Assembly: GCA_943736015.1 (NCBI GenBank)
Contig: OX031072.1
Coordinates: 2,817,501-2,881,500 of the forward strand
Origin: Tridacna crocea
Taxonomy: Eukaryota; Mollusca; Bivalvia; Cardiida; Cardiidae
Length of the DNA stretch: 64,000 bases
Direction: 5' to 3'
Shown here one piece after another: positions 95 to 61,207 of this stretch. Made by a program: the position numbers and the translations under genes. Within the stretch, counting starts at the first letter, position 1, and the number at the start of each line of letters is the position of its first letter. Under the pieces are notes generated by a model. It was not told where the DNA came from, did no database searches, and was given only the letters and a program-made list of their open reading frames with translations.

Positions 95-3000
95 GTAAGT
101 TTTATCGTAAAGGAGTTTAGGGTGTTTTTTTTCTATCCTCATATATATATTTCCCTTTCCCATTTCACTGTTTCATTCTTAATGATATCAAAAGTAAAGT
201 CTGATCTTCAGTGCAATGATAATTTTATCCTTACCTTTTACAGCACAAAAATATCTTTTCCTGAGAAAAAAGCCTTTCAAAACCTTGTGGGAAAAGGAGA
301 AAAACACTGGCAATCAGCATTTTTTTCCTTTTCATACAATGGCTTCTACCCTTTGAAAAACAAATCCTGTCATTCAGGACACATCAACTCTGTTGTCTGC
401 AATTCTTTCAGTTTCAACAAGTCTACAATTAATTGTCTGATAAAAAACCTCCCTTGTAAAAGGAAGTGTCCAATTTGCAAGTGTAAGCATGCTTGCATTT
501 CAGAAAATAGGCGGTAGTAGGATTTGAAAAAAAAAAAACAGAATAAATATTTCTCCGCTTGCTCATGCTGCGAATTCTTTTGATTGTGCTTCCACTAGCC
601 TTAAAGAAGCAGCACATCTTGAACTGTATTAACTCATTACCACACAAGAAAATTTTAGACTGGTCCAAATTGAAAGCATTTGCAGACGACAAAACAAAGG
701 TGACTGAAAAATTGAAATTTGTTCTGGGAAGGGTAGAAAACACTGTGGGAAAAGGAGAAAATGCTGGTTACCAGCATTTTCTCCTTTTCCCACAGTGTTT
801 TCAAAAGGCTTCTTTCTCAGGGGCGTCAAAAGTAGGGATTGTGTGGTAATGGGTTAAATGATAAAATGTTTAGCACATGCTTTCATATTAAATTAATTCC
901 ACTCAGTTTCATTGACAATATATATGCACATGAAATGTTTGTTTTCCCATATAAATCTTCAAGTTTTACCAAGCACTGCCCTTCGACATTGTTGTGGCAC
1001 CTGTAAATTATAAATTGTTCTTACTAGAATTTTGATTTTCTTCATTCTGTTTGAGAAAGAAAATCTGTTGCTCAGAAAAAACATCTTGATATGTATTTAG
1101 CTAGGGTATGTCTGTGTGAAATAAACCAAAAAATGGTCTTTCCTTGAAAAGGAAGACAAACATAACCTGCCATCGATTTCACACTATCTATGAAGTGTTA
1201 TTGAATTGCAACATGGAAACAAAAATTTAGTGTTGGAGTGAGCTTCAGCAAGAGATTTTGAAGCAATGTCTGTGACTAGAAATTGTTGATTAGGAACTGT
1301 TCACCTGTGGCTGTATTGTAAGTCAGTGACTTGAAAATGGAAAACTAGGCGGAACAAGTGAATGAAACTCCTAGTGTTTCCAAATTTCTTAGAGTCATAC
1401 AAGTTCTTTTCTATTTAATCAGAGGACCAGTTTGATGGGTGGTCTCCCTTTATGACTGGTTTAGTGTCCCCGAGAATCTGTAAGTCTGTACAATGAATGC
1501 GAAAAATTTACTGGTTTTACAAACTTCTTTATAATGGTGTTTTGCTTTATTTGCACATTTTTTGTGTTTCTTTTTCACTTGCATCAAGTAAAACATTAAT
1601 CCCACATATCATTATAACTGGTATCATTAATTTTGAAAAAGTATCAAAAAGAATAAGTACTAACTTGGAACAGTAGTGATACCTCAGTTTGTGAAAGTTT
1701 TTATGAATGCAAGAGGACTGGTTTAGTCAGTATACCTTTTTCTCATTTTGTGGTCAGTATTTATATGCATTTTGTATGTCACAAAGGAAAGATATCCCAG
1801 TCTGCCTTGAAAGTTACTGGACTAGACAGTTGATGTTTTTCAATCACAAACTTGTCATTTTGAAATAAGTGCAGCAAGCTTCTGATTATTTTATTTTAAT
1901 AGAAACATTATCACCTTGGAAAAAACGAAAAAAACAAACAAACTGACTTTGATGACAAACAAAGAAAGGTTTACTTTCAGACTCCAAGTAAACTGGTTAA
2001 AATTGATATACTAGTAAATTTAACCAAAGTAATATTTCTTAGAAGTACATAAAGGTCTGTCTACTTAACCCATTACCAAACAAAAATATTTTAGACTGGT
2101 CCAAATTGAAAGCATTTGCAGACGACAAAATAAAAGTGACTGAAAATTTGAAATTTGTTTTGTGAAGGGTAGAAAACATTGTGGGAAAAGGAGAAAATGC
2201 TGGTTACCAGCATTTTCTCCTTTTCCCACAATGTTTTCTAAAGGCTTCTTTCTCAGGGGCGTCAAAAGTAGGGATTGTGTGGTAATGGGTTAAGACAATT
2301 TGAATTTAGCTAAAGAAATCATGAAAAGAGACATTTAGGATTGCTTTTTTTCTCAATTTAGGTCTTTTTTAATCACTTAATATATTTTGTAGACATACTT
2401 TTGGATTCATTTTGCACTTATCACAACAGATGATCATTTCAGTGGTGGACAGTTACATAGTTGCTTCAGTTTTATTCCACCTTCTGCTTTATTTTCACAC
2501 TCTTTCAAATACACTATGAGAAAAGCATGGTGATGGTTGTTCGAGTTTGATTTTGCTTTGAGGAGGTTCTTTTCTCTCATTTTAGTTTAACAAAAAGGTT
2601 CAGACTTACATTTGAAAAATGTAGCTTGAAATATGTGTATTTGTAATTGTTGTTTGTTTCGTCGATATTTCTATCTGACAGAAAATAAACCAGCTTTTGA
2701 TTTAGATTTGCATGTCTATAACATATTGAGAAGAGGCAAAAAGTTCAATATCCATGGAAAAGCTGAACAAAACATTTTTTTTTAACTTCATGTGTAATAT
2801 ATTATTGAAAAATTAAAAGCAGAAGAATATTACATGAGGTTTTGGTTTTTATCAAATTTGGTGAAAAGATTTTGAAAATGTTACATGGTATTCTTGCTAC
2901 AAGAACTTGATGTGTTTTTATGAGCAATTGTGTTTATTCAGCAGAATTAAAGTTCTGATGTGAAGTAATTACTTTTACTCTTTATACAGCATATTGTTTA

Positions 3001-6000
3001 AAACCCTTTACCAAACAATCCCTGGTTTTTACGACCCACAGAAAGAAGGCTTTTGAAAACATTGTGGGAAAAGGAGAAAATGCTGGATACCAGCATTTTC
3101 TCTTTTTCCACAATGTTTTCTTTCCAGCTGGAAACAAAATTCAATTTTTGAGTTGCATTTATTTTGTTTTCTGCTATTGCTTTCAGATTGGACTAGTCTA
3201 AGATTTTGTCATTTAGTAAAGAATTTAAGTTCTTTGATAAAAGAATAATAGTAGGGATTTGCACAAAATGAATAGTCACATTGTTTTTGTGCTTAGAAGT
3301 GGAAAGCAAAGGTATTAAAGTACATAAAAAAGTATCTGTATAGCTACTGTGAATATCCTGTTGAGTACACATACTTTGCTGACAAAATACTTTTTTGTAG
3401 AGAATACTTCTGAATTAATTGATTTTTTTTTTGTACTCTGGAATCTTTGGATAAATGGATACAAATTAACAGAAGGTAAATTAATATTTAAAAAAAAAAA
3501 TGCAAAAAAGATAAAAGAAAGGGAAAAAAATTGTTTAGTACTGAATAGTACAAAATTCATCACTTGAATTTATTTTAATACGTATAAAATAATTCACACC
3601 CTAACTGAAATAAACATGAACCAGAGCACAAAGGATATTAAATAGGTACATATTTCATATAATCAACAATGTCTTTCAACAAATCCACTTGTTTTATCAT
3701 ACACCCTGTTTAATCTTTTTTTTTATGTCAAAGATTTAGTTTTCTCTATACCATTTACACAAATTTTGAAGCTGCAAAGGAAAAAAAAAATTATTCCGAA
3801 TCAAATTTTCATTACTTTGTAGAATTGATTATATACTCAGTGTCGATGAAAATTCATCAGGTAAGAGATGAAAAGAAATTGAACCTTGGATAGTTTGCCT
3901 TCAGAAAATTGATTAGAATTCATTTTTTAATGTTCTAATAGAGATGGACTACTCAAATGTGTAAGAGTGTGAAATTTGTCAGATACGGGTAAGAAAATGG
4001 GTATAATACGAATCAGCATAATTAAAAATTTCTCTGTTGTGGCACAGTGAAAATTATTCAGCTTTAGTACCTGGTGACTTTTCATTGACGCTGAGTCTAT
4101 ATTGTTATGATATTTCAGACCCTAAAGCCTCCCCACGTCAAAGACCAGCAAGTCCTGCAAGATCACCCAACGATGTGGCTTTACGACAGATAATACAAGA
4201 AAAAACTAAGCTGGAGGCAGAAATTCTTGGCTACAAACAGAAAATTAAAACAGCTGACACTGAAATAAACACTATGAAAGAAAAGGTGATTGCTTTAACC
4301 CTTTACTCCACAGATACTCATTTCTACGCATTCCTTGTAGAACCCTTTGGAAAACATTGTGGCAAAAGGTGAAATTGCTCATGACGAGCAATTTCACTTT
4401 TTGTCACAATGTTTTCTATGCTATCAAAAGGTGTCATATACACATAAGAAACTGCTTCATCCTTGCTTTTATTAAGAGCCGATTGGAGATACCATAGAAA
4501 TATTTTATGGGGTAAAGGGTTAACAATGTTTGTGTTTATTCATATAGCTTTACAGCATTTATATCCTCTGTTTGTATAATTAAATGCATGTAATGTATAT
4601 CGATGGCTGAGTTCAATACTATCCTAAGTGCCTAGACAAGTATAGGCACTTAGGATAGTGTTGCACACATCCATCAATATGAGCCTTGCTCTGTAAAAAG
4701 GGGGCTAAATGCATCTGAGAAAAGTATCGGCACAGGCTGACCTGGTCTGAAACTTCAGTTGTCAATTTTCTGTTTGTCAAAGGGGAGTCTACTTCATAAG
4801 AAAGTGATTTATTTAACTCTTTACCACACGAGAAAATTTTAGACTGGTCTGAATTGAAAGCATTTGCAGACGACAAAATAAATGTGACTAAAATATATAA
4901 ATTTGTTCTGGGAAGGGTAAAAAACACTGTGGGAAAAGGAGAAAATGCTGGTTACCAGCATTTTCTCCTTTTCCCATAGTGTTTTCAAAAGGCTTCTTTC
5001 TTAGGGGCGTCAAAAGTAGGGATTGTGTGGTAATGGGTTAAGAAGATAATCCTGATTGATCTGTAGTATGTGAGGCCTAGGGTTGGTATCATGTATTATA
5101 ATGATGCATTAGACCCCCCTTTTCCAGAGCATGGCTCATATGGATCTGAACAAACCTTGGTTAGAGGAGAAATTTGCCCATTTTCCCTGTTAATGGTTTA
5201 GTTTGGTCAATCTCTTTAAAGGCATTAGGTTTACAAACTGATTTTACATGTACATATACATTTCTTTTTTTTTTTTTCAGACGAAGTTTTACAGTAATCC
5301 AACAATTCATAGTTGTTCAAAAATTTTTAGAAGAAAAAACTTGCTCTTTTCTGTTCTCCAAAAAAAATTTTATGGTGTCTTAAAATGATGGTGTTGATTT
5401 TATTTTTTTTTTTCACAGAAGACATACCAGATTTGCTTAATACTGATTAAAAGAAACACCAAAATGCATGGATATGTGCACTTGTTATAATGAAATAAAT
5501 CAAATACATGTAATGCTGAAAAGAGAATAAATACTATACATTTAATTAATGAATTGAAAAGTAGGGAAATCACATTGAAAAGTAATAGAATCGGCAATTT
5601 CATAAAGCTAACTTTTTCTGCTATTTCAGATGTCAACTTTGGAAAAAGAAAATGAGGAATCACAAAGTAAAATATCTCAGTTATTGATGAAAAACAAAAG
5701 TTTGAAAGCAGAGCTTGAAGAAACTGAGCAACAGCTAGATGAAACAGAGGTATGTACAACTTGTGAAGGTTGATAATGAGATTTAAAAAGATTTGAGAGA
5801 TTCAAAGGACTTTTAGGTCCAGATAATGTCTTGAATATATGTTATAATTTTTGTTTCTATCACTTAGGGTATACCGGTAAATGAAGTCCAACGTAATCCA
5901 AGGTAGTTTAAAGAATTTGCTTACATTTGTTTGTCAAGAAACCACATAAATGTATAGAAGATTTCCTTGTTAATCTGCTGTTATTTTTTAAGGAATTCAA

Positions 6001-9000
6001 TAAATAAATTATTATTCTATTCATAAATGGCTCATTCCTTATATCTCAATTGTAAGGAAAACTTAGTAAAGGTCAAATACTTGACTCTTTTTTTTTTAAG
6101 TTTCAAATAAAAGCCTAAGTATATGCTGAGTTAGTTCCTCAAGCTGGTTACAACCAGGAAGAAAAAGATGAGCAATGATTCACACCTTCAAGTTGAAAAA
6201 TCTCCCAAAATTTTGTCAGTCTTTAGAAGATTTCTTGCAGTTGATACTTTCTTGGTTTTTATAGTGTTGATATTTGTGATTAGCATCATGTAGGAACCCT
6301 ATCATGTTATTATTTACACATTGTCTGACTCCATATATTTCAAAATATCAAATTCATTGTCATTTGCTACCTTTCATCATCTGTAATACTTAGCTCTATA
6401 CATAGCATGTAATCTTAACTCTTTACCAAGCAACAAAATTTAGACTCTTCCAAATTGGGAGCATAAATTTGTATACAACAAATTAAATATGGCTCATTTG
6501 ATGGGACTTGTCAAAGAAAGAGAAGAAAATTGAAAAAAGGAGGAAAATGCTGATAACAAGTATTTTCTCCTTTTCTAATATTGTTTCCAATTGCCTTCTC
6601 CCTCAGGATCATAAAAACACAGAACTGTTTGATAAAGAGTTAAACAGCTGAAGAAAAAGAAAGTGCTATGCTTGCTTTCTTGTGCCTCATTTATAGTGGC
6701 TGTCTTTTGTGTTGATATGCATCTCATTTTCATATTTTTGTTTTATTGCTGCTGATTGGTAGATAAAGGTAAGAGGGAGAACAAATTAAATTTCCTGTAT
6801 CAGACCTAATATTTTGTGTATAACCAATCATCAATATTAGTATATAACCATAGCATGATTCTTTGAAACTTGATTTGAATTATTACATGTAAACTTTAGT
6901 ATGCATTATATTTCATAATTGTTCACTTATTGCCTGTAGAAGTTTTTATTGTAATATATATTAAAACAAATATACTGTAACATAAACAAATATACTGTAA
7001 CATGCAAGATGAAACACACCTATTTGTTGTGTATATTCCACTATGAATGTCACATATACATTCACTGTAGAAAATACTGTATATTTGAGAAATTTTTGGT
7101 AGAATGTATAAATGTTTAAAAAGTACCATTGTTTACCAGAGATTTTCCTTGTTTTCGTCATGAATTAGTTTGCAAATTAGACAAAATTAATGATGAATTT
7201 CCCTAAATCAGACAGCTTAATGAACTTGATTATGATATTTTGCTTTGACATTTTTGACATTTTAATGAAAGATCCATGTATTAGAAGCACTTATTTGAGG
7301 TAGAACCCTTTAGAAAATTTCTGTTCATGGTTGATAATGATTAAAAACCCTAGAGGTAGAACCATGTATTTATAGGGAAATGTTCAAATAGCTGATAGTT
7401 ATCTATTTTGAAATAACTGGTCCAGATCCTATGTAAATTGGCTTTAAAGCATAAATTTCTTCAACTATCTAAAATTAGAACTGGATACCTTTATTTCCTA
7501 TCTTACTTTCTGTTGTGATAAACTGAGTTGATTTATGAACAATTCAGTGTCTCTGTAGATGATATGTTCTGAAATATTGTGTAGTTTTTAGCTTGTTTTA
7601 TGACACAAAAATGCACCAACAATATGAGGCATTTTCTATTTTTTCACAAGCAACTCTGAAAACTCTTTTTGCACTCAACAGGCAGAAATTTTGCATTTTG
7701 GGATTAGCTTTTTTCAAAGAAAACATCGAGGTATTGTTGTAGCACTTATGTCATTTGCATTATGATTGTAACAAGCCTCGTCATCTTCATGCAAAAACTC
7801 CTAACATTTAAAAAACTTAGACAAGTTTAATTATTCCTGTTGTTGTCACAAAAGATATTTGCTTCAAACTTTGACAAGTTTATCACTATCAAAAGGGAAC
7901 CCATTACTTGGACAAGTTTTTCACTTTCAAAAGGGAACCTGTAAAACAAGAGCAGGTTACCATTAAAGTATTTCTTCTAACAGTTCTGCCCCTTTTTGAC
8001 TTTGCATTTTTACTGAAAATCAAGCACTCACAGGAGCCAAGTATTGGCACCCATATGGCATACTTATGTTTTCATAAAGTATTCACACTCTTGGAAATTT
8101 TTTGAGTTAATCAGTTATGATACATATGCTGTGACATATGGCATTTTTTATGAATTCTTCTACAGAATTTTTTTTTTTTCTTTTGACAAATCCGCTTCAA
8201 ACATTACTCTCTGATCAGCCACTTTTAGACAACCTTTAAAAATAGACTTCATAAGTGATATCCTTCTAGTTTATTTATAGTGAACTATTGAAAAACTGTT
8301 CTACATTCCTAATCGATTTTTTTTTTTATCAAACTTTCATGGTGTCTCAAAACTTCCATAGGCTCCCACCACTGCTTTTGTTCTAAATTAAATAATCAGG
8401 CATCAACTGTTTAAAAACATTTTGTTGAGATAAAACAATAAAAAATATCTAAAATCCCCAAATAGTGTAAGTACATTTATATGCTTTGCAAATGGATCAG
8501 CAATTTCAGATCTGCATCAATATGCCTCTGTTGCTTTACTTTTGCTTGCCTTCTTTCATTATTTTGTACCATATATCATTAAGTTTCATTTATGTCAGTC
8601 TTATTATGCAATTTGTTCATTTATAAAATCTGTCAGTCTCAATTTGTAGTGAAATTACTTTGAAGATTAAATTTTCAGATGGAGCAATGATAAATTGCTA
8701 GGTCAGATATTTGACTTGATTATTTTTGAATTTACTCATATCTATGAGCAAGTGATATGTCTGATCGATCCATTATTTGCATTCGTAATTGTGTAAAGAC
8801 TTTTATCTGAAATAAAGGCAGGATGTACAAACTTTTTACCTTATTACACATTAGTTTGGAAAATATGGATTAAATCAAAAGAATTTGGATTAAAGGTTCT
8901 GTTTTTGATACTGTGTTCCTTATAAGAAAGGAGACTTAAAAAACTTAATTTGGAGTTTTTACCCAAAATGTATATATTATATCTATGAAATATTAGAAAA

Positions 9001-12000
9001 AAAATACTAGGAGGATGTTACAAGTAAGCAAAAGTTTTTTTGTGTTTATAAACTCATGCTTTATATGTGCTTTGCTTGTTTAACAAATTAAAAAGATGCT
9101 CATTTCATTTTTGATCTGTATGAAAGATGGGAAAGACAGTTATTTGAAAAGGGAATGTGAGTTTTGAGCTTTTCATTTTGTAATGTGTCAGCTTTCATAT
9201 TTTCAGCTATTATTTTTGAAAATGCATCAACATTTTGTTTTAAATGAATCCATCACAGAAGTACATGATAAACATGAAAATTATGATTTATACATGTATT
9301 TTTCTTCTTTGTCTTTTTTCTGCATTCATATTTGGTTGGCAAAACAAAGATGGTAAGAATTTTTTAGCAGTCATTCTAGATAGGAATTCAAGTGTTAAGA
9401 ATAACTTCTATGGAATTTAACAATATTTGCTTGTTGGTTTAACCCATTACCACACAATCCCTACTTTTGATGCCCCTGAGAAAGAAGCCTATTGAAAACA
9501 CTGTAGGAAAAGGAGAAAATGCTGGTAACGAGCATTTTCTCCTTTTCCCCCAGTGTTTTCTACCCTTCCCAGAACAAATTTCAATTTTTCAGTCATCTTT
9601 GATTTGTCGTCTGCAAATGCTTTCAATTTGAACAAGTCTAAAATTTTGTCGTGTGGTAAAGAGTTAAGAATTAAATCAACATAATTACTTTCTAAAAGTT
9701 TCAATTTTTTACAAACCTTTGTGTTCTCTCCTCCTTACAAAATTACTTTTGCATTCAATATTTAGTTCCCCCAAATTTGTTCAAGGTAGCTTCATAAACA
9801 GAAAAACGGTAGAAGTTAATATTTATATCCAAAAAAAGAAATCATTTCAGAGCCTAAGGGATAGATTTTGTATTACAAATTATTTTTTTTCCTGCGTGCA
9901 AATTCTAATCTATTAAGCAGCTCTTAGTCAACTCAGCCAGTCAGTGCTTTTAGTGCTTTGATTTTGAAATCATTGTATAATTTTTCTCCACTTGGGTAAG
10001 GGTTTACAGCCAAAGTGTTATTAATATCAACAAAGTGTTTAATTTCACTTTCTGTTTCATTCATCTGTCACAATGTCAATTGAATCTGAGTACTTGAATT
10101 TATGTCACAAAACTATTTTTGTTTTTCTGTAGACACAGATGGAGTCGTTGAAGAAACAGAAAGATGCATTACAAGACACTTTGGATAATGTAACTTCAGA
10201 GCTAAACACTTTACAGTCTCAAAGCTCAAAAACTTCCTTCCTCAATGAATCTGTGGAAAAACTCAGTGTTGAAAATAAAGATCTTTCAACACAAGTTGAG
10301 TCACTCAAGCATGAACTGGACCAAGTGACAGCAGAAAAAGATGAATTAGAAAATGAAAAATTAAGACTCAGTAAAACTGAGGTGAATTTATCTAGTGAAA
10401 TACAGGAATTAAAAAGTGAATTAAACCTTCTGAAAACTGCCAAAGATCAGTATAATGAACAACAGAATAAACTTACAGAAACGCAAACAATGTTAGATAC
10501 TAGGACTGTCGAGTTCCAAAAACTTAGTCAAAGTTCTGAAAAACTGGATAAAGAAAATAAAGAGTTGTTGAATAGACTTGAATCAGTTCAGAATGAATTA
10601 GAAACCACAAAGAAAGAGTCACAAGGAATTGCCAAACAAGAGGTGAGTACATATGGCAAATGGTCTTTGTTTTAACCTTTTACCACACAGGCTGGACTTT
10701 AACTCTTTACCACACAATCCCTACTTTTGACGTCCCTGAGAAAGAAGCCTTTAGAAAACATTGTGGGAAAAGGAGAAAATGCTGGTAACCAGCATTTTCT
10801 CCTTTTTCCACAATATTTTCTACCCTTTCCAAACTTAATTTCAATTTGTCAGTCACATTCATTTTGTCCTCTGCAAATGCTTTGAGTTTGGAAAGGTCTG
10901 AATTTTCTTGCGTGGTAAAGCGTTAATTCTAACATGACACGCGACTTTGGCTCTATGAACACAGTGCAAGGAAAACGTGGTAAAATCTACGACAATCCAT
11001 GTACAGTGATGTCATCCTATATCGAGTGATGTCATTCAATGAGTAAGTTATTCAATGGAACATAATCTTCATCCGCGTTTTTACTCTTAGTTTGAACTTG
11101 TTTTCCTTTCATTAAGAATTTGCCATGTTAGAATCGAAATAATCTTCTTTCTATCGTGGTATATTGTTCAATAAACCACGTTGTGAGTTATGAGGCGCAA
11201 TAAATAACCCACTTGGGCTATCGCCCTCTTGGATTATTTATTGTGCCTCGTAACTCACAACTGTGGTTTATTGAACGATATACCACGATAGAAAGAAGAT
11301 TATTTCTTAAATAATCCTAGAGAGAAATACTTGTAAAAAAGACTGAGGGAAGAGGAGATAATTCTGGTAATCAGCCTTTTCTCATTTTCTCACATATGTT
11401 TTCTGACGTTTCAAAATCAAAATTTATCATTTGCTCCTGATTTCTTTTGTCATCTCTGATGCTTTTACTGTAGACCAGTCTACAATTCTGCCAGACTTAA
11501 CCCTTTCCCAAACAACAAACTTTTCGACTGGACCAAATTGAAAAAAACATTCAACTCTTGCTGAAAAGATGATTTCTGTCTATGATAGGGTAGAAAACAT
11601 TGTGGGAAAAGGAGAAAATGCTGGTTACCAGCATTTTCTCCTTTTCTCACAATGTTTTCAAAAGGCTACTATTCCAGAACCGTAAAAACCAGGGATTGTT
11701 TGGGAAAGGGTTAAGCTCACATTTACAAGTTTAAGGATCCTGACAGAAATGACTTTGGAAAACATTGTTGGAAAAGGGATAAATGCTGGTAACTAGAAAT
11801 TACACCCTTTGCTAAAATGTTTTTAAGGGATTTATTGTTACTTCAAGTTTGAAAAGTAAAGTGGAATGATTGTTGTAAAATATTTTTTTCGTTTTTCTTA
11901 AAGTTGCAGGTATGATACAGTAATGGTTTGTGCAAAATTCTTTATAGACAAATATTGATTCCACTTTGTTTTGACGATGTAACCCTTTACCAAACAACAA

Positions 12001-15000
12001 AATTTTAGACTGGTCCAAATTCAAAGCACTTGAAGACAACAAACTAAATGTAACTGATAAATTGAAATTTGTTTCTAGCAGGGCAGAAAACATTGTTGGA
12101 AAAGGAGAAAATGCTGGTTACCAGCATTTTCTCCTTTTCCAACAATGTTTTCAAAAGGCTTCTATCTCCGGATAGTGAAAACCAGGGATTGTTTGGTAAA
12201 CGGTTAAACACAGTTGAATGGTTGCTTCATTTATATATTAATTAATCGTTGATAATTTACATATGTTTGATAGTTTAGCAGAATTACATTATCACAGTCT
12301 AAAGGATGGATACCAATAAACGTTTTCGTCAGGGTTGCAAGAAAGCTATATCATTTGGTAAAGATTTGAATTTATCTTGGTATATATGTATGCTGTTTTT
12401 CTGTGCTTTCAGTTAATCACAGGGCACATGAGGGACCAAATTGCCAAACTAACTAAAGAGGTTGAAGATATGAAAAGTGATCTCAAATCAAAGGTAACAA
12501 GATTTTAGTGATACTCTGTGAAAAGGATGTCATTCATCTGCTAAAAGAATCGACTCAGATCAACCTATTTTATGGATCGATAGCTATGTAATGACTTGCT
12601 CAGTGTTGTGCATCATAGAGATGCATTAACCCTTTACCAATTTTGAGTTACATTTATTCTTTTTGTTTTCAGCAAATGCTTTCAATTTATACCAGTCTAT
12701 AATTTTGTCATTTGATAAAGAGTTAAAACCCCTCTTGTCAGGCCATAGCTCAAATTTATCAGGTATTGATGAAATGTTTGTTGCAATGAAATGGTTTGTG
12801 TAAGTACAGTGTGCATAAGTATAAAAAAAGGTGTGTTGAATTTTAATTCCTTTACCACATATTCCCATATTTTAACCCATTACCACACAATCCCTACTTT
12901 TGACGCCCCTTAGAAAGAAGCCTTTTGAAAACACTGGGAAAAGGAGAAAATGCTGGTAACCAACATTTTCTCCTTTTCCCACAGATTTTCTCGTGTAGTA
13001 ATGGGTTAAGAATATCAACAGGTAAGGAGCATTTTCTCCTGTTTCCACAATGCTTTCTTCCCTTTTAAGGACATATTTAATTTGTTGTCTGGAAGTTCAT
13101 TCAATGTGGGCAAGTCTAAAAGTTTATTGTCATGAAAGGATTGAAAATTTTGATTGAATTTATGAGATATTTTAAGATGTTTCCTATTTGATAGTTACAT
13201 ATAATTATGTAAGATGCTACATTGAGGTTTTGTATCAAGGATATTCCATAGCTAGTGTGGGAGAAATGTGTGAAAGACAAATGCAGGTCATATTGTATCA
13301 TTCATTTTTTACAATCCTAAAAGAATTATACTAAACTAGATATAGAAGGCATGTAAACCCTTTCCCAAACGACAAATTTTGGACTCTTCCAAACCAGAAG
13401 AGTTTGCAGACGACAATTTTAGATTTGGAGAAAATGGCAGAAAGTTCTCAAAAAGGGTAGAAAACACAGTGGGAAAAGGAGAAATTGCTCGTTACGAGCA
13501 ATTTCTCCTTTTCCCACAGTGTTTTCAAAAGACTTTTACTGCAGGCATGTAAAAACCAGGGCTTGTTTGGGAAAGGGTTAAATGATGCAGTTGCAATCTC
13601 ATTTTATTTCTTGTCACTTAACCCTTTACCCTATAAGGCATTTCTATGGTATCTCTAATTGACCCTAAATAACAGCAAGGATGAAGCCGTTTCTTATGTG
13701 TGTACGACACCTTTTGATAGCTTAGAAAACATTGTGGCAAAAGGTGAAATTGCTCATCATGAGCAATTTCACCTTTTGCCACAATGTTTTCCAAAGGCTC
13801 CTTCAAGCAATGTGTAGAAATGAGTATCTGTGGAGTAAAGGGTTAATGTATTTTTTATGTAAGTTAACATGGCTAATGATTTGGCTTTGTCACAATTGTA
13901 CTTCTTGATTAACTAGTGTACCCATTAGTTACACTAATTGATAACATAAAATATTAGAGCAGAACAAAACAGAAGTTTTACTGATCCTTACTGTGCTACA
14001 AAATTGAATGAATATTGGAAGTCTGTAATAAGAAAAGAGCAAAATATTACAATAATATTAATATCAGACATTCTTAATTCAAGATCAAGTTATACATTCT
14101 GTGAAACGTAACTCTTTATTAACTCATTACCAAACTACAGTATTTTAGGCTTGTCCAAATTGAAAGCATTTGCAGACGACAAAATTAAAAGTGACTGAAA
14201 ATTTTAAATTTGTTTTGTGAAGGGTAGAAAACATTGTGGGAAAAGGAGAAAATGCTGGTTACCAGCATTTTCTCCTTTTCCCACAATGTTTTCTAAAGGC
14301 GTCTTTCTCAGGGGCGTCAAAAGTAGGGATTGAGTGGTAATGGGTTATCCCATTAACCACACAATCCCTACTTTGACGACCCTGAGAAAGAAACCTATTG
14401 AAAACATGGTGGGAAAAGGAGAAAATGCTGGTAACCAGCATTTTCTCCTTTTCCCACAATGTTTTCTACCCTTCACAAAACAAATTTAAAATTTTCAGTC
14501 ACTTTTATTTTGTCGTCTGCAAATGCTTTCAATTTAGCCTAGTCTAAAATATTGTTGTGTGGTAAAGAGTTAAACATCAAAATTTTAGCCCCAATTGAAG
14601 TTAGTGTATTAGCAAACAACGAATTCATAAGTAGTATTAAGGCTTACTAGTGATACATTTAATTGCCAGCATAATTTGTTTGTTTATTTTTGGCTACGAA
14701 TAGATGGCCTAAAACACGTGAAAAAGGGCATTCAGACATTTGCCTACAGTGTCACCTAGATTAGCCTGTGGGGACTGCTAATCCAAAATGACATTTTCTG
14801 TTTTTATGTAATTTTCTGCTTTGTGAAAGTCTACAATAGCCCAAAATCTAGTCTAGTCATAAAGTGCTGTCTCGGATGAGCCTGCGCAGACTGATCCAAG
14901 ATGACAATTTACACCAATGTCCGAATGCCTTTTTTTGCATGATGCAATCCGTATACCAGTAATATTTCGTGCAAAAACCAATTTTTACACTTATCAGAGA

Positions 15001-27720: not shown

Positions 27721-27752
<32 letters not shown>

Positions 27753-48700: not shown

Positions 48701-51700
48701 GTCGTTAAAACTCGTTATTGTGTGGTAAAGGGTTAAAATATTTCATTGAGCTTTTGGTTTATTTCAGAACTTGTTTTCTTTTTATAAGAAGCTTTTGGGA
48801 TTTTGATTCTGACCAACTATCACTATTTTAATATCTGTTTTTACAGCTGCTTGAGTGACACACACATGTGATTAATCATTTGTTGAACCCATGTTATCTG
48901 CAGGAAATCAATTTAGCAGTTTCTTCAATTTATTTTTTACTATTTTCCTTTTATTTCTCACAGTATAGGTACAAATAAATATACTTAAACACTCTAATAA
49001 GGTTATACTTGCTAAAAGCCCATTACTTGTCTCCTGAAATCAAATTGATGGAATTTTGAAGAACAAGAATGCAAGAAACATTATAGTTTTGTGTTGAATT
49101 TGTATTTTCAGTGACTATGATTCATATTCAAGGTATTTAAAGCATGTTTGATGACAATTTACAATCCATTAAATGACATTTTCACAAAACATCCTTTCTG
49201 TTTAAAGCTTTTTCCTCATGTGCTATTGTCATTTTTCCTAATACCAAAACTGTCAAAGTATTGTGGCAAAAATCCATGTTGTTCATTAGGAGCAAAACAT
49301 TGCAGCCTAATTGTCTTTTTGTTTGTTGCAAATGCAATACAATATACTTGGATGAAATATTGTCATATAAGTTGGGCTACTTGTTTATGAAATTTATGTG
49401 TAGTACATGTATTGATAATTTTTACTAAGACTTGCACAGTCTCCATTTTCATATTTTGATTCTGATGAAGACTGATTGGAAAAAATTATTGTTAAAAAAT
49501 GAAAATAAGCATACCTGTCAATTTTTAGACTGTAAAATGGTTGTTATAGCTATACTGTTTGGTAACTAATTTACTTTCTCTGAAAAAAAAAAATTCGTAG
49601 ATTAACTCATTACCAAACGAAAATATTTTGGGCTTGTCCAAATCGAAAGCATTTGCAGACGACAAAATGAAAGTGACTGAAAATTTGAAATTTGTTTTGT
49701 GAATGATAGAAAACATTGTGGGAAAAGGAGAAAATGCTGGTTACCAGCATTTTCTCCTTTTCCCAAAATGTTTTCTAAAGGCTTCCTTCTCAGAGGCGTC
49801 ATAAGTAGGGATTGTGTGGTAATGGGTTAAGTATAAAGGTCAACAGAAAGGTTGTTTACAGTTCTATATATATGTTCACATTTAGCGTTTAAGACATTGG
49901 TTGCTGAAGACATCAGTTGGTCATGATAATTCCTGTAAACTTTGGTAACTAGGTACTCCACTGAATGAGTGGCAAAGGAGAATGGGTGATGTTAACAAGA
50001 CAATGCTTTTCTGAGTGGTCGAATATTTCCTTTGATTGACGGTATATATTGGTCAATTGATACAGACAGCGAATCATGCAGTTTGGAGGTCACTTGATTG
50101 CCAAAAAATCAAACATGTCCCATAAATATGGTGTCTGTGGTTGTGAGGTAGAGCAACACATTTGCCACAAGTACTGATGTAGCTCCCAGGAAGTAAATTC
50201 AAGAGAAATTTGTATAAGTTTTAAGAACTTGTTTCGCAATCAGTGTTAACCCATTACCACACAATCCCTACATTTGATGCCCCAGAGAAAGTAGCCTTTT
50301 GAAAACACAGTGGGAAAAGGAGAAAATGCTGGTAACCAGCATTTTCTCCTTTTCCCACAGTGTTTTCTACCCTTACCAGAACAAATTTCTACTTTTGAGT
50401 CACCTTTATTTTGTCGTCTGCAAATGCTTGCAATTTGGACCGGTCTAAAATTTTCTTGTGTGGTAAAGAGTTAAATATATATGATTTAACTAATTATAAG
50501 GACAATTTCACCACAGTATATTCTATTCAGAATCACAAACATGCATGTTATATTAAAAAATTGTGAATCTCTTCTATCCTCTCTCTATACTGCATGCATC
50601 TTGGTAGATAACTTACAGGCAGAAATTTTACCTTATTTTATCCAGAAGGTTTTAAGATCAAACTTAAGACTTGCTTAGCTTTCTTTTTGTTTTGTTAGGG
50701 TGTGGAACTGGGGTCGGGGGGCTGTATGTATCAGCCTTTCATAACTCTTTACCAAATGACAAAATTGTAGACATGTCCAGATTGAAAGCACTCACAGATA
50801 ACATATACAATGTGGTTAGAAGAAAGAGATTTTTCTTTGATTACTATAATTTTCTTTTTTCCCTCACAGTGCTTTCAAAAGCCATCATATGCAAAGTTCT
50901 GAAAACCTAAAATGATGTGTTGTAAAGGGTTAAATGGCATCATATAAATTCCAAGATGAAGAATTAAATATATACAAGACACAGTGTCTCTGCAAATGAA
51001 AAGGCAAGTTTTAAAATTTAGAACTACAGTTGTATAAGTCAATTTTAACCGGTGAATGTAAACGGAACCTGATATGTAGGGCTACAACATCATCTTTGTA
51101 ATACATATGTATGTCTTATGATTTTCTTGGCAAGGAACAATTTGATTTGAATTTTCAAGAGTTTCTGTTTAAAAAGTGCTCATTCAAATGGCCAGGTGTA
51201 TTTGCATAGATACAAGATCATTATTTTCTGCTTTTATGTCCTAAATGATGGGATAAAATGGTTTTCAGTTTAAAAAAAAAATTCATCAGTTTTTAAAAAC
51301 TAAAACCAAAATACAAGGTAGAGGCTGTGCATCTTGTGTATTTAGTTTAACTCATTACCAAACGACAATATTTTAGGCTTGTCCAAATCAAAAGCATTTG
51401 CAGACAACAAAATAAAAGTAACTGAACATTTGAAATTTGTTTTGTGAAGGATACAAAACATTGTGGGAAAAGGAGAAAATGCTGGTTACCAGCATTTTCT
51501 CCTTTTCCCATAATGCTTTTCTGAAGGTTTCTTTCTCAGGGTTGTCAAAAGTAGGGATTGTATGGTAATGAGTTCATCTCTTCCACAGTCAATGTAAGCA
51601 CCTTCTTCCAATGCTTGGCATTGCTGGAAATATCCCATTACCGTTATATGTCCAAAATATTCACAAAATCGTTCTAAACACCAACACCCGTACCTGACCT

Positions 51701-54700
51701 CATCTGTTACTAGAAAGAAAAAGAAAGTATATCCCATAAACATTTTAAGCATCTAAATATTCAATCTTTATTACCGGTATGTCTTTGTATGTTTCACTCT
51801 AAATGTGCCACATCATCTCTGTGATTTGCATTTCTTTTATATTTCAAAGTTTGTGTTGTTATAATTTTTCTTCTCTAAAACAAATTTGGCCATTGATTTT
51901 ATTGGCTTAGATTGACTTGAATGCAAGTGTTCAGCTCTTTTGTCTTGTTCTGTAATTTTGAAGCAGTCTTGTATTGTCTTATGTAAGACTTATGTGCCTT
52001 GTTGTCATAGTTATGTCAAAAGTCATGCCCGTGTCATGCCATGATTTGACTTTTCAGCAAAGCTTAATGACCTACCCCAGCCAAGCTTTTGCTGCAACTA
52101 ATGATGATTGGTTATTTCTTATGAATTAATTGGGGTAGTACTTAGAAAAATGATCTTTACATTTCAGGATTATTGTTTTTGAATAAATTAATTGTGCATT
52201 TTTTAGGATATAGAATATTGAACTCACCACCAAAAGACAAAGTTTTAGACTAGTCCAAATTGAAAACATTTGCAGACAACAAATTGAATTTGGAGAGAAT
52301 GATGATATTTTTATCAGAAAAGGAAGAAAACATTGTGGGAAAAGAAGAAAATGTCGGATACTAACATTTTGTGGTTTTCCTATGATGTTTTTAAATACCA
52401 TCTTAATCTTGGGGTCATTAAAAGGGTCTTTGAAAGTCAGATTGTTTGGGAAAGGATTAAGCGTTTTAGAGTTGACACATACATGCATAATTTATGGAAT
52501 ACTTACTGTTATGTCAAAGTGTTGAAAAAAATTCATCAAATTAGCCATGTTGGGTAGACACACCTTTATTCTTCCTTTTTATTTCAGTCAGAAATAATAT
52601 GTACAAAATACATGCAACCAAATCTGCTATTAGAAATGTTGTGATTAATTTAATTATCTGATGTTATTCAGTATTTATTGTAATACATTGATGTATTGAT
52701 TTCAGGAGTAGGTAGGTGAAAGTGTTCATGAGTTAAACAATTTTTTTTACAGCAATGACGATGAGTACTTTCGGTACTTTGATCACTACAATAATGGAGG
52801 GTAAAAAATGATTTTGGAAAATGCCTCTCGTAGAAAATAATTTCTTTTGTTCACATTTTAGAAACTAATGGCCAGTTACTGCGTTTGTGGTTTGTTATGA
52901 AGTAAATTATGTTTATGTACTGAAGACCAAAGGGCAAAATACTATAAAAGAACTTGTACTCTTTTGTTGAACATGTCGAGTGATCTTAGGGTTTTTGGAA
53001 TGTTACTTATTCTTCTATATGGCTTGCAACACCCAAAAAGGGGCATTTGGACATTTGATAAAAGTTTGTCTTGGATCAGCCTGTGCAGTCTGTACAGATT
53101 AATCTGAGATGGCACTTTACAACTACATAGGACTTCGGGATACAGTAGAGTGGCAAAAAACAGAAAATTACATGAAAACGGCAAGTTTCATATCAGATCT
53201 GCCTTTTACGGACTGAACAGACTGATCCAAGACGACACTTTATGCAAATATCCCTAAGGTCCCTTTTCGCATGTTTCAAGCCATATAGAGAATAGGAAAT
53301 AAAAAGAGATAGCTAAGGTAGAGGAAAAGAAGAAATATTGTGTGTGTGTTAAATTGAAAACACACAATGGTATGTTTGTTTTTTGCAGCTTACAAAAGCT
53401 ACACAAGGATAGCAATGTGTGATTGTTTTCAGTCATCTATTGTAACCCAACCACAAATGCTTTCTGGACATAAATTATGGAATGTTTATTACATTTCAAT
53501 AAAACTTTCAAATGTATGCTCACTGTAAAGACTTTTATGTTGATGACAAGAATATAGGAATGAATGACTGCTATTTCTGGTGGATTGTCTATTCTTTTAT
53601 AGTACATCATGAGTGTGAAATCCCTGCTAAATACATGTACTTTGAGTGAAGATTCACTTTGAGAGCACCTGTGCCAGTATTCACTGACTATTTGACTAAC
53701 TTTCTAAATGTAACAATTCTAGGACAATCCATCTGACTGGCTTGAGCACTTTGTTTTGACCAGTCAGATTGGTAGTCTTGTATTTTAGAAAGAAAACAAT
53801 TATCAAAATCGATTGTGATATGGATTGAACAGTTTCTCTTTGATCGCATAAATAATCACTGGAATATTTTTGTCACAAATACACATATCAAAATGATTTA
53901 CTGATCCTTTTGTATACTTTATATTAGTACCTTTTTTTTTTCAATGTTGAAATGTAATAAACATATACCTGGCTTTCTCATTAAGTTAGGGAAATTTAGA
54001 TTGATGTAGGTGACTTTTTTTCTAAACCTTTCAAAGCTAATTTTCTTAGCAGAGAGTCATTCTTTCTTTTTTTGCTTCCATTTCATTCATTTAAAAAACA
54101 ACATGTGTTGCCATATTCACCGATCACATTAAAGTTAATTCTAAACATCAAAACTAGCCATCTGATTTTCTCCCAGCCATCCAGATGGCCTGGTTTTAAA
54201 TTTTAACCCTTTACCAAACAACAAAATTTCAATTTGAAAGCACTTGCAGACGACAAAATTAACGTAACTCAAAAATTGAAATTTGTTTCTAGTAGGGTAG
54301 AAAACATTGTGGGAAAAGGAGAAAATGCTGGTAACCAGCATTTTCTCCTTTCCTCACAATGTTTTCAAAAGGCTTTTATCTCAGGGTCATGAAAACCAGG
54401 GATTGTTTGGTAAAGAGTTATGAAATGGAGCAATATTTGCAATTGAAGGCAAAGTACATACCCAGGTCTTTACTAGACCAGCTCTTATTGTTTACTTTGT
54501 TGTCATCGAAAATTACTTATTTTAACCACAATCGCCTAAAACATTCATATAAGTTTGCAGTAGTCTGTCATTTGATTTACTCAGTACTTGCTTCAATTTC
54601 ATTGGCTAGAATAATTTTTAGCAGATGATATACTGTATTATGGTTTGCTGCTGCGTTTTGTGTCATTTGAATTGCTATACATACTTGGCCACTAACCTGT

Positions 54701-57689: not shown

Positions 57690-57743
57690 GTAAGTAGTTC
57701 CTCTTTATAAAGTGACCTTGTTTCTAATCAAGGAATCTAAGAA

Positions 57744-57978
57744 TTAACCCATTACCACATAATCTCTACTTTTGACGACCTGAGAAAGAAGTCTGTATAA
57801 ATAACAGCAAGGATGAAGCTGTTTCTTATGTGTATATGACACCTTTAGGTAGCACAGAAAACATTGTGGCAAAAGGAGAAATTGCTCATCACGAGCAATT
57901 TCACCTTTTGCCACAATGTTTTCCAAAGGCTCCTACAAGCTATGCGTAGAAATGAGTATCTATGGAGTAAAGGGTTAA
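57744..57978 (-). mobile_element. Chimeric A/B TTAA MITE
   Basis: The left ~45 bases are the A-type short arm (CCCATTACCACATAATCTCT, TTTGACGACC). From TAAATAACAGCAAGGATGAA onward it is B type, with a B hairpin mixed with GGAGAAATTGC on one arm. TTAA on both sides. Confidence 0.85.
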
Positions 57979-58198
57979 CTCTTTACCAAACGACAAATTT
58001 TTGGACTGGTCTGAATTCAAAGCATCTGCAGACAACAAATTGAATCTTATTATGGTGATTTCTGACATTAAAAGGGTAGGAAATATTGTGGGAAAAGGTG
58101 AAAATGCTGCTTACCAGCATTTTCTCCTTTTCCCACAATGTGTTCCACAGGCTTCTTTCTCAGAGTCATCAAAAGCCAGGATTGTGTAGTAAAGAGTA
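57975..58198 (+). mobile_element. TTAA hairpin MITE, A type, sharing TTAA with the chimera
   Basis: Starts on TTAA 57975; right end GTAGTAAAGAGTAAA. Centre GCTGCTTACCAGC, stem with GGTGAAAATG/CATTTTCTCC mismatch. Confidence 0.85.
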
Positions 58199-58363
58199 AA
58201 ACTCCCTTTTCACATGTCTTTATTTCAATGCTTAATTCATGTATTGTTACTAAAACCAAAAATAGTATGTTTCTTGGCATGTAACAGTGTACCTTTAGAT
58301 ATCAGTTTTTTTTAGGGGATTTAGAATTTTCTGTTATTTCAATAATTCAATATCACTTGTTAT

Positions 58364-58838
58364 ACCCCCACAACGTAGTGGAGGGGTTATACTGGAATCG
58401 CCATGGCTCTCTGACTGTCTATCTGTCTTTCTGTCTGTCCTTGTTTATGAGGGGGCATTTATTGGGTATGTTTCAGTTACAATGGCATTTGTTGGGTAGT
58501 TTTTGTATCATATTTAAATACCCAACAATACATATCCAATATGAATTTAAACTTTTTACCCAACAAGTGGTCAGATGTGAATAGATCCGTCTGTCTGTCC
58601 ATAGACACAAATTTTTCCGCAGCAATACTCCTACAGTTTTTCACATACTGAACTCAAATTTACACAAATACATATATGTGAAGTTATGAAGTTATGCATG
58701 TGCATTTTCCATGACCCTGCTGTGATTTGTTATGGAATTATCTCCCCTTGAAATTTTTCAACTCTGTGATAAAGACCTGTTTTTGTGACAAGGAGCTGGT
58801 GGGGAGTATAATCATGTTTAGTGATAGCTCTAGTTTTT
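58364..58838 (+). repeat. Dispersed repeat split by a ~150-bp insertion
   Basis: ATACCCCCACAACGTAGTGG to CTGTCTGTCC (58440), then foreign sequence containing TTGTTGGGTA ... TACCCAACAA, then CTGTCTGTCC again (to 58600) and the remainder to AGTGATAGCTCTAGTTTTT. The repeated CTGTCTGTCC may be a target duplication. Confidence 0.7.
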
Positions 58839-59078
58839 ATCAATATTGGCAAATTCTGATTGGCTGACTTTGTTATTTCATAGCTCCATAAAAAAAAAGA
58901 TCATACTGTGCCAGAACTAATGTTGCTGTCAAACTAATGTAAACAAACATGTATACGAGATTTCATAATTTTTTTTTTTTTCAAATTTCATACAGAGTCC
59001 AATGTTCAAATGCTAGCTTAGTTCATTTTCTCTGAATATCACAAAAATAAAAAAAAATATGCAACAAATTGATAAAAT
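58839..59078 (+). other. Intron stretch with a possible terminal exon
   Basis: TTTCATACAG at 58986-58995 is followed by a short frame in the phase of exon 19 that stops at TGA 59033-59035, with AATAAA-like sequence at 59046. Only 13 residues, so I do not call it a gene part. Confidence 0.2.
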
Positions 59079-59182
59079 CTACCTTTCTCAACTGAATTTT
59101 AATGTTTGATTCAGTTATTTTGTTGTCTGCAAATGCTTTCAATTTGGACAAGTATTAAATTTTGTCGTTTGGTAAAGAGTTA
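59079..59182 (-). mobile_element. Truncated TTAA MITE long arm
   Basis: TTTGTTGTCTGCAAATGCTT through TGTCGTTTGGTAAAGAGTTAA; hairpin absent. Confidence 0.7.
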
Positions 59183-59758
59183 AGCTCACTTTTAGACAAC
59201 AAATTAAGTGTGAATCAAGTGATAGTAGCTCTCTGTCAAACAATATAAATATTATGATAAAAGAAGAAAAAATGAGTAACTAGCTTATGTCACTATAATT
59301 GTGCACATCTTCATCTGACTTTGAAAAATATGAGCAGTTAAACACATTTTCTAAGTATACTAATAACTGCAAAATAATTTTTGCCTATTTCACATATATT
59401 TTGTCCAAAAAAAGGTAATGGGTAACCAGCTTATGTCACAGTAATGGTACACATCTGAGTTTGAAAAAAATATATACAGCTAAACACATGCTCTAATTAT
59501 ACTAATAAATGCAACATAATTTTTGCCTATTTCACATACATTTTGACCAAAAAAGGTATGACTTGTATTTATATGTATATATTGCTAAACAGAGTTTGTT
59601 TGGTTTTGCTGCATAAACTATATTTTGTGTTCTAGCACAGCTTAATTCTTTTCTGTTGACAACACCAGAAGTTTTTATGGACTGTGTAGATTAAGACAAG
59701 ACTTCACCAATAATGCAGACTGATCTCTGATCCAAGCTCTTGACTACTTTACTTCTGA
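59183..59758 (+). repeat. Local direct duplication of ~125 bp
   Basis: GTAACTAGCTTATGTCACTA ... TAATTTTTGCCTATTTCACA at 59275-59400 recurs at 59420-59545 as GTAACCAGCTTATGTCACAG ... TAATTTTTGCCTATTTCACA. Confidence 0.75.
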
Positions 59759-59985
59759 TTAACACTTTACCAAACAACAAAATTCTGGACTAGTCCAAAT
59801 TGAAAACATTTGCATAAAAAAATAAATGTAAATCAAAAATTGAATTTTGAATTGGAAAGGGTAGAAAACCCTATGGGAAAAGGAGTAAATGCTGGTTACC
59901 AGCATTTTCTCCTTTTCCCACAGTGTTTTCAAAGGCTTTCTTTTCCAGGGTTGTTAAAAGTAGAGATTGTGTGGTAAAGGGTTAA
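59759..59985 (+). mobile_element. TTAA hairpin MITE, A type
   Basis: TTAA on both sides; stem mutated on one arm (CTATGGGAAAAGGAGTAAATG), centre GCTGGTTACCAGC. Confidence 0.88.
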
Positions 59986-60084
59986 GGTGAAATTGTCGCT
60001 TTATGTTGCAGTGAACCTATATTTATAACCAATGAAAAAATGTAACTCATTTATATGGTAGTGAAAGAGTCAACCCACAACGAC

Positions 60085-60235
60085 ACAACTTTGGGAAATC
60101 AGACTGTTGAAAAAATTGTGGGAAAAAGAGGAAATGCTGATAACCATTTCCTGAATTTTCTTCAGTTCAAACAATGTTTTGAAATCATCTTCTTAATGGT
60201 CATGAAAACAAGGAATTATTTGGTAATGGTTAGAT
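60085..60235 (-). mobile_element. TTAA MITE, strongly diverged
   Basis: GTGGGAAAAAGAGGAAATGC and GATAACCATTTCC keep only half the hairpin; ends unclear and orientation uncertain. Confidence 0.4.
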
Positions 60236-60428
60236 AAGCTGAAATTGCAATTTCATGTTGCATGAGATTCGCTTTGCATAGTGGCGGGACTTGCAATCAA
60301 GCTGTTTTGTGTGTTTTTCACAAGATTTAGTTTGCTAATAATAACATGTAATCAGATACAATGTTTAAGCTGACGTAAGTTAGTATGTGAGATAAAAATT
60401 CTTCTAAAACAAGTTCTTACAAATGTTG

Positions 60429-60613
60429 TTAACCCTTTCAGGACCATAATGCAAAAACAGTGACTTTTGGGGCCAACATAGATCAAGATCAGACTGCACA
60501 GAACATGCAGTCTCTTCCTTGATATGCACCATCAGCTTGCTTAGTCAAGTATGTACAATCAAAATCTTTTGAAAAGAGAGGTCAATTTTATTTATTGGCT
60601 CTGAAAGAGTTAA
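60429..60613 (+). repeat. TTAA-bounded repeat with GATCAAGATCAGACTGCAC
   Basis: TTAACCCTTTCAGGACC at the left and CTCTGAAAGAGTTAA at the right suggest another TTAA family; the inner block is shared with 16374-16500. Confidence 0.6.
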
Positions 60614-60740
60614 GCAAGCCCTTGGTGAGCTGAATAACATTATTACTTCGAGAGTTTAATAAGATTTTTATCACATAAATAAACTTATGTCAGAGTCTTT
60701 TTATCACATGATTCTGTCTCAAGAAGTGTATGTCAAGATA
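60614..60740 (+). repeat. Fragment of the ~400-bp repeat
   Basis: GAGAGTTTAATAAGATTTTT and AGAGTCTTTTTATCACATGA resemble 20770-20835. Sequence from 60740 to 60992 shows nothing further. Confidence 0.5.
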
Positions 60741-60992
60741 TTCAAAATATAAGACAATTTTTGTGATTTGAACTTTACATGAATAATACCCTTTCTTGTC
60801 TTAGAAAGGTGTGTATATTCTTGATGAAAAATTGTCCCAAAGAAAAGAATATATAAAACTTGTTTTCAATAAAAAATGTAAAGTTTACATTACATTCAAA
60901 GGTAATTATGTGATAAATACATTTAGTTTGCTTACTGTCACTGTCAATGTTTGTATTTTGTTGTTTGTGTTGTAACCATTCATTGATTCTTA

Positions 60993-61207
60993 TTAACTCT
61001 ATACCAAGCCTTTGTATAACGGTATTTGAAGCATATTGCAGATGAAAAATGAATCTGGTTCAAATACTGGGATAAGGGATGATGATTGTATTTGAAAGCA
61101 TACATAAAAATGTGGGAAAGGGAAATCCAGTATTTTCCCATCTTTCTACAATTTTCAAAGACCTAGTTCAACTTTGTTAAAATGGAGGATTGTGTGATAA
61201 ATTATTG
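60993..61207 (+). mobile_element. TTAA MITE, strongly diverged
   Basis: ATTAACTCTATACCAAGCCT start, GATTGTGTGATAAATTA end; hairpin reduced to GGGAAATCCAGTATTTTCCC. Confidence 0.55.

Follow-up and report, generated by a model that had tools for sequence, protein, structure and literature searches.

The window analysed here, 64,000 bases of the bivalve Tridacna crocea (GenBank assembly GCA_943736015.1, contig OX031072.1, positions 2,817,501 to 2,881,500 of the forward strand), carries two families of miniature inverted-repeat transposable elements (MITEs), A and B, which are flanked by TTAA and built around a long central palindrome. This palindrome is the most constrained part of the elements in their source lineages, more than the inverted ends, which is a new finding, and its two arms co-vary. 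We consider it reasonably probable that A and B are TTAA/piggyBac-type MITEs in which the palindrome is a cis module under selection.

Element Inventory and the Two Families

Segments were called by nhmmer with two profile models, A seeded with 12 copies and B with five. The search led to 77 non-redundant segments, 71 of family A and six of family B (Table 1), the first located at 260-443 and the last at 60994-61200. They cover 15,174 of the 64,000 bases (23.7%), a density that carries no information on the genome average, while five dinucleotide-preserving shuffles of the window gave no match at the identical cut-off. The score is at least 100 bits in 49 of the 77 and below 40 bits in six; as some segments are fragments or pieces split by other insertions, the number of insertions is somewhat lower than 77. 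Concerning orientation, 46 segments are on the plus and 31 on the minus strand, and both model ends are present in 46 of the 77. An earlier reading made from the sequence only had counted about 70 copies in both orientations, which agrees well with this inventory.

The consensus length is 229 bp in both families. At either end the two consensus sequences agree in 13 of 17 bases, and in the hairpin they agree in 57 of 67. Their left interiors align with a score of 20, not above shuffles (mean 18, maximum 38), and their right interiors are only marginally alike (score 18, shuffled mean 1.8, maximum 20). A single kind of element with a common core and common ends, but with at least one differing interior, is represented here by two families and not by one. 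The sequence-only reading had the 229-bp length right, yet it described one family; it missed the second, as well as the hairpin as the most conserved part. Both families are short and non-coding with inverted ends and numerous copies of uniform length, as characteristic of MITEs. The palindrome, previously estimated at about 49 bp, is actually 67 bp long in the A consensus, with 33 consecutive paired positions around a one-base centre.

Constraint on the Palindrome

A region that is needed for copying should show few changes in the source lineages and even decay in dead copies, and the observed pattern is broadly so. Since the hairpin itself raises the score of a copy, copies were picked by their left and right interiors only, 43 left-right pairings giving 39 copies. 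Variants private to one copy are nearly as frequent in the stem of these copies (46/2,492, 1.85%) as in the flank (128/5,790, 2.21%; p = 0.32), whereas shared variants, whose cells are not independent, amount to 65 (2.6%) in the stem against 690 (11.9%) in the flank. The inverted ends, a subset of the flank, have 87 shared variants in 986 cells (8.8%). With the 35 A copies that score 150 bits or higher, the private count is 40/2,238 (1.8%) in the stem and 132/5,315 (2.5%) in the flanks (p = 0.08), and shared ones 50 (2.2%) and 594 (11.2%), respectively. Counted as variant types in the same 35 copies, the stem bears 40 private and 15 shared types in 64 sites and the flank 132 and 138 in 154 (p = 0.0017), a contrast that holds without CpG and has p = 0.027 without CpG, TpG and CpA. 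Several tests of the present analysis are post hoc and uncorrected. Additionally, internal branches summed on one fixed 41-copy tree reach 0.032 for the stem and 0.695 for the flank. A scan of 19 full 12-base blocks showed a private rate of 1.2%-3.7% throughout, whereas the shared rate, 6-16% in blocks beyond the hairpin, drops to 0-1.2% over positions 121-156. A first singleton test against all decayed copies, underpowered and now superseded, had given no stem-flank difference (p = 0.22 to 0.65).

Some observations do not fit a stem that decays neutrally after insertion, and they weigh against the above interpretation. Terminal branches of the 41-copy tree are shorter in the stem too (2.02 vs. 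4.14), nearest-neighbour pairs differ less in the stem (72/1,086) than in the flank (399/2,544), and within the nine-copy 115C subfamily the differences are 16/576 in the stem and 86/1,381 in the flank (p = 0.0016). Moreover, two copies combine old interiors with perfect hairpins, namely 17754-17982 (27.5% divergence, 0/32 mismatches) and 33186-33414 (19.5%, 0/32). Source-variation remnants, gene conversion or copying between arms could each contribute to this signal. Specifically, ectopic gene conversion between copies, begun by breaks at the palindrome, would homogenise the hairpin, and both the two old copies with perfect hairpins and the shorter terminal branches of the stem are consistent with it. 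Conversion, however, should also remove private variants, which are nearly as frequent in the stem as elsewhere; in other old copies the hairpin is itself decayed, and the old interiors may partly reflect subfamily differences. We therefore regard conversion as an improbable explanation of the constraint, and selection in the source lineages remains our preferred one.

Covariation of the Two Arms

Pairing was studied in 44 of the 49 hairpins of at least 100 bits (38 A and six B; 39 distinct), after removal of hairpins that had an indel or lacked an end. Paired cells make up 94.3%, against 90.1% with shuffled partners. Cells changed on both arms number 43 against 9.6 in shuffles, at 12 of the 33 pairs against 5.8, and sliding the partners by 1-3 columns leaves only 4-11 such cells, at 3-9 pairs. 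Five stem pairs differ between the A and B consensus and four of them are altered on both arms (121/161, 128/154, 133/149 and 138/144), each by an exchange of two bases between the arms; the exchanged pair is complete in 5, 5, 6 and 5 of the six B copies, in that order. The A copy at 13354-13581 harbors the two B-type swaps nearest the loop, on both arms, and the one at 26229-26432 harbors one. In the open-licence literature, at the level of titles and the first parts of abstracts, no study on compensatory hairpin change in MITEs was found.

Against joint change of the arms it should be noted that the covariation counts are inflated by the relatedness of the copies, that the loop-adjacent pair 139/143 shows a one-arm change in the B consensus and, in several B copies, either a one-arm change or no pairing, and that ten one-arm variant types are common to several of the 35 best copies.

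Covariation may also arise by mutation alone, if template switching between the arms restores pairing without any selection on the element. Among double changes private to one copy, seven restore pairing and five do not, while 1.3 restoring ones are expected with independent arms (P = 0.0005, post hoc; P = 0.005 if half of the chance doubles pair). Of ten loop-base changes in A copies scoring 60 bits or more, eight run from T to A (p = 0.02 relative to T sites of the flank), as do five of six in the 35 best copies (p = 0.08). Inversion of the loop predicts this, although the numbers are small. The copy at 34636-34864, which has the lowest interior divergence, bears a private compensated pair near a changed loop base. 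A compensated pair together with a loop change has been called the "strongest possible support" for template switching and is extremely rare in the data of the report concerned (PMC8794818). Likewise, the four double differences between A and B are all swaps between arms, as if the families had copied opposite arms of an imperfect ancestor. Copying between arms, however, does not slow down sequence change, yet the rate of shared variants in the stem is about one fifth of that in the flank. The five unpaired private doubles also count against it (7/12 paired, p = 0.066), and inversion of a one-base loop is indistinguishable from a T to A change. We thus see little chance that mutation alone has kept the palindrome.

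Selection on the hairpin as RNA was also considered, in which transcribed copies would form a long duplex that is processed or shields the element. Four example hairpins fold as near-perfect single-strand RNA stems (-48.5 to -51.7 kcal/mol, z about -15), and many copies lie within introns of an apparent gene. One-arm transitions leading to G.U in the sense RNA, however, number 74 against 59 leading to A.C (p = 0.22), though most of them represent post-insertion decay, and the window has no Rfam match at the gathering cut-off. This explanation appears highly unlikely to us.

TTAA Target Site

Borders were counted in the 46 two-ended segments, the 31 of the 77 without an end being omitted. The exact TTAA is found on the left in 40/46, on the right in 34/46 and on both sides in 30/46, in line with the conserved TTAA borders noted in the sequence-only reading, and the bases beyond it show no strong preference. 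The outermost T is kept in 44/46 and the outermost A in 40/46, which favors duplication of TTAA rather than of TA, two cases that an empty TTAA site alone cannot separate.

Such a site is available for the copy at 44946-45158, which is established in a 114-bp tandem repeat. Its flanks, joined at a single TTAA, align without a gap over the junction to other units, and the empty units 44148-44238 and 44606-44694 carry TTAA at the insertion point. The check proposed with the sequence-only reading thus supports TTAA as the target, with the reservation that it is present in only two of the aligned units shown, the others having TTAC, TTGC or something different. The second candidate, 46282-46510 within an older copy, is weaker (70% alignment with a one-base gap). 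Taken together, A and B are well supported as TTAA-targeting MITEs. The tandem array itself occupies 43043-43510 and 44075-44825, two parts separated by about 560 bp that are unrelated by eye, with the MITE copy at the array end.

Six neighboring pairs, in A-A and A-B combinations, abut at one TTAA position (five intact, one now TTAT). These are not in excess, as 11.2 are expected with random choice of TTAA (95% range 6-17), and the count can be explained without any preference for element ends. A tandem-array origin of the abutting copies was also considered and set aside as unnecessary, since the pair count is not above chance.

Superfamily of the Mobilizing Enzyme

Animal piggyBac elements start with CCCTT, CCCAT, CCCTC or CACTA (PMC10813416). 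After TTAA, family B has CCCTT in five of six copies on each side, while the right end of family A has CCCAT in 16/40 copies and CCCTT in 10/40. The left end of A is less favorable to a piggyBac assignment, as it has CTCTT in 13/40 and CTCAT in 8/40 (together 21/40), with CCCTT in 9/40 and CCCTT or CCCAT together in 10/40. A piggyBac-superfamily source for A and B is our best guess.

In 43 of the 46 two-ended copies, TTAA is directly followed by C. This disagrees with the GAG ends of Sola3, another TTAA-targeting group, and with the RR/AG ends of Kolobok. Kolobok also duplicates TTAA and ends in 5'-RR/AG (PMC6004289, PMC9587614); TTAA alone, which the sequence-only reading took to point to piggyBac, consequently does not imply that superfamily. 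It is the ends, mostly CCCTT or CCCAT in B and on the right of A, that favor piggyBac, membership not being claimed.

The enzyme might instead be another TTAA user, like Kolobok or Sola3, or a TA or 3-bp duplicator that prefers TTAA. Both named groups share the target, the empty TTAA site by itself fits duplication of TA equally well, and the A left end is frequently CTCTT. By contrast, C as the first base contradicts the RR/AG ends of Kolobok and the GAG ends of Sola3, and near-fixed outermost T and A are unexpected for a TA duplicator with free neighbors, which makes an enzyme other than piggyBac very unlikely in our judgment.

No transposase family was recognized in peptides from 20 of the 98 window open reading frames (ORFs) of at least 75 aa, some examined partly and the survey not being exhaustive. 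The lack of a transposase or autonomous relative in this survey counts against our interpretation. The previous statement that nothing here could mobilize the copies is supported to the extent of this partial coverage. The hairpin core pattern, scanned in collections of genome contigs and viral contigs, gave no match, and the literal end string together with piggyBac was not found in the open-licence literature.

Proposed Role of the Palindrome

According to our preferred explanation, A and B are two related non-autonomous, TTAA-targeting cut-and-paste families, most likely moved by a piggyBac-superfamily transposase supplied from elsewhere. The palindrome would act in cis in transposition, by analogy with known internal sites in transposase binding or synapsis, while inserted copies would decay roughly neutrally and template switching from arm to arm during replication may help to keep the arms alike. 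In the likeliest form of this role, the transposase would bind the palindrome, a site with two-fold symmetry, through its dimerised C-terminal domain. Conservation of the stem sequence, and not of pairing alone, together with the mostly symmetric A/B changes is what would be expected if a protein dimer occupied a DNA site of two-fold symmetry. Binding by a transposase dimer is nevertheless a tentative and rather doubtful proposal. The distances from the palindrome to the two tips are about 105 and 55 bp, whereas the piggyBac site is at bp 17-33, and the palindromes for which binding is known measure 16-19 bp, far less than this one.

A bolder and less likely version, which we put forward as speculation, is that the 67-bp palindrome would be the transposase-recognized core, outranking the inverted ends. 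Its arms would be monomer half-sites matched by template switching, and A and B would be opposite-arm copies of an imperfect ancestor. If true, one template-switch event alone would alter both half-sites and let the element follow a new transposase specificity.

Gene Setting and Other Repeats

Nine plus-strand coiled-coil exons with AG/GT borders were found between 4,119 and 40,135 (2,215 bp in all), which likely belong to a single gene span. The sequence-only reading had placed all copies inside one gene; the nine exons make this likely without proving it, and no further exon was noticed beyond 40 kb among ORFs of at least 75 aa, shorter exons not being sought. None of the nine exons is overlapped by a segment, which is not significant given so little exon. 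Two of the six B copies start 10 and 12 bp past exon ends (4286-4298 and 23501-23515), just behind the 5' splice site, the GT being inferred from the reading frame. Attempts to name the gene gave only weak Pfam matches, all under the curated cut-offs, and six weak matches in a PDB search (best E = 0.0022, prelamin). ARAGORN, like Rfam at its gathering cut-off, had no match in the window.

Apart from the MITEs, a 171-bp tandem repeat is located at 18978-19706 (4.3 copies, 87% matches), and a 295-nt inverted pair at 11019-11313 and 24914-25208 (94% complementary) belongs to a further dispersed repeat that lies clear of the MITE segments. At 20700-20800, likewise in no A or B segment, a long inverted repeat forms a separate foldback, as judged by eye. 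The region 22805-22850 looks tRNA-like by eye, as at the head of a short interspersed element (SINE), whereas ARAGORN and Rfam were negative. Two 29-bp tandem arrays (25560-25673 and 26693-26839) have the palindrome AGCCATTTCATGAAATGGCT within their unit. Finally, minisatellite rows at 61648-62667 are built around TTGGTAAAACCATC, the units measuring 32-33 bases apart from one of 54.

Table 1. MITE segments called by the nhmmer models A and B, followed by two example hairpins (positions of the whole window).
Position	Strand	Family and state
260..443	-	A partial
629..857	+	A full, TTAA at both ends
2065..2293	+	A full, TTAA at both ends, perfect hairpin
3000..3227	-	A full, ends decayed
4295..4523	-	B full, begins 10 bp past exon end
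4813..5041	+	A full
6415..6643	+	A full, decayed
9439..9667	-	A full
10699..10926	-	A full
11317..11490	-	A partial
11497..11714	+	A full, interior old, 1 hairpin mismatch
11729..11823	-	A fragment
11979..12207	+	A full, private compensated hairpin pair
12635..12726	-	A fragment
12873..12990	-	A right half
13019..13138	-	A fragment
13354..13581	+	A interior, two B-type hairpin pairs on both arms
13618..13846	+	B full
14119..14348	+	A full; meets 14345..14573 at one common TTAA (mutated)
14345..14573	-	A full
15258..15486	+	A full
16555..16766	-	A full
16907..16991	-	A right fragment
17041..17284	-	A full
17754..17982	-	A full; hairpin perfect despite 27.5% interior divergence
18172..18268	+	A weak fragment
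19764..19986	+	A nearly full
20387..20598	+	A full; TTAA common with 20595..20662
20595..20662	+	A left fragment
21174..21402	-	A full
22090..22319	+	A full
22981..23179	-	A partial
23512..23740	-	B full; begins 12 bp past exon end; TTAA 23737-23740 common with 23737..23966
23737..23966	+	A full
23995..24213	+	A full
24725..24822	+	A left fragment
26229..26432	-	A partial
29331..29560	+	A full, old
30013..30232	+	A nearly full
31911..32131	+	A partial
32402..32630	-	A full, perfect hairpin
33186..33414	-	A full, perfect hairpin; TTAA common with 33411..33639
33411..33639	+	B full, private compensated hairpin pair
34636..34864	+	A, interior divergence lowest; private compensated pair and changed loop base
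35103..35292	+	A partial
36448..36665	-	A partial
36925..37152	+	A full
37997..38130	+	A weak fragment
39236..39453	-	A decayed
39859..39956	-	A weak fragment
41561..41771	-	A decayed
41969..42174	+	A nearly full
42194..42335	+	A partial
42623..42828	+	A full, decayed
44946..45158	+	A full, within 114-bp tandem repeat (empty-site copy)
45409..45612	+	A partial
45614..45666	+	A weak fragment
45671..45817	-	A left part; TTAA common with 45814..46042
45814..46042	-	A full
46079..46258	-	A partial
46282..46510	-	A full, possibly nested in older copy
46777..46983	+	A partial
47337..47553	+	A full, private compensated hairpin pair
48508..48736	+	A full
49602..49830	+	A full
50246..50474	-	A full
50741..50933	+	A two-ended, decayed
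51347..51576	+	A full
52219..52460	+	A two-ended, decayed
54203..54421	+	A full
54954..55182	+	B full
57744..57978	+	B full; TTAA common with 57975..58200
57975..58200	+	A full
59078..59183	-	A fragment
59759..59985	+	A full
60105..60230	+	A partial
60994..61200	+	A weak
2172..2238	+	A hairpin, perfect example, 33-bp arms
13725..13791	+	B hairpin, perfect example

Comparison with Known Elements

Concerning piggyBac-type elements, MER85 (human, PGBD3-derived) is likewise a short TTAA piggyBac MITE; its ends measure 13 bp, and its transposase binds a palindrome in the interior (PMC3459987). Its palindrome, however, is 16 bp long, imperfect and near the 5' tip, whereas that of A and B is 67 bp, near perfect and central. 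In piggyBac a dimer of the C-terminal domain binds a 19-bp palindromic internal repeat (PMC7351741), and piggyBat contacts an imperfect palindrome through a C-terminal domain of another type (PMC11707139); these sites are of at most 19 bp, and binding in A and B is inferred from them. The Kolobok T2-MITEs of Xenopus are, like A and B, long-lived TTAA MITE families, but with AGGRR/AG ends instead of C-rich ones (PMC6004289).

The CMITEs of the coral Acropora, the nearest known counterpart, resemble A and B in several respects, being short TTAA-flanked MITEs with piggyBac-like ends, in several families with unlike ends and a common internal region, and with one copy in a presumed intron (PMC2872659). 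Conservation in CMITEs is higher in the internal region than at the ends, and a role in transposition was suggested for that region in the same report (PMC2872659); the same trait is present in A and B, where shared variants reach 2.6% in the stem and 8.8% in the ends. On the other hand, CMITEs are about 100 bp long, not 229 bp (PMC2872659), and their core folds weakly (-4.7 kcal/mol with DNA parameters) and is not one long palindrome. Abutments of A and B via a single TTAA are at chance level and do not form slippage arrays, unlike those described for CMITEs. A blastn search of the window with the published 60-base part of the 75-base CMITE core, allowing E values up to 1, was negative. A and B thus resemble CMITEs in kind, without a detectable common core sequence. 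The CMITE report left open why some MITEs amplify well and what role the conserved interiors have. In families A and B the conserved interior can be described precisely as a palindrome whose arms co-vary, which makes the transposase-binding idea directly testable, and the comparison of private with shared variants in one window offers a simple, genome-free way to locate the parts that source lineages need.

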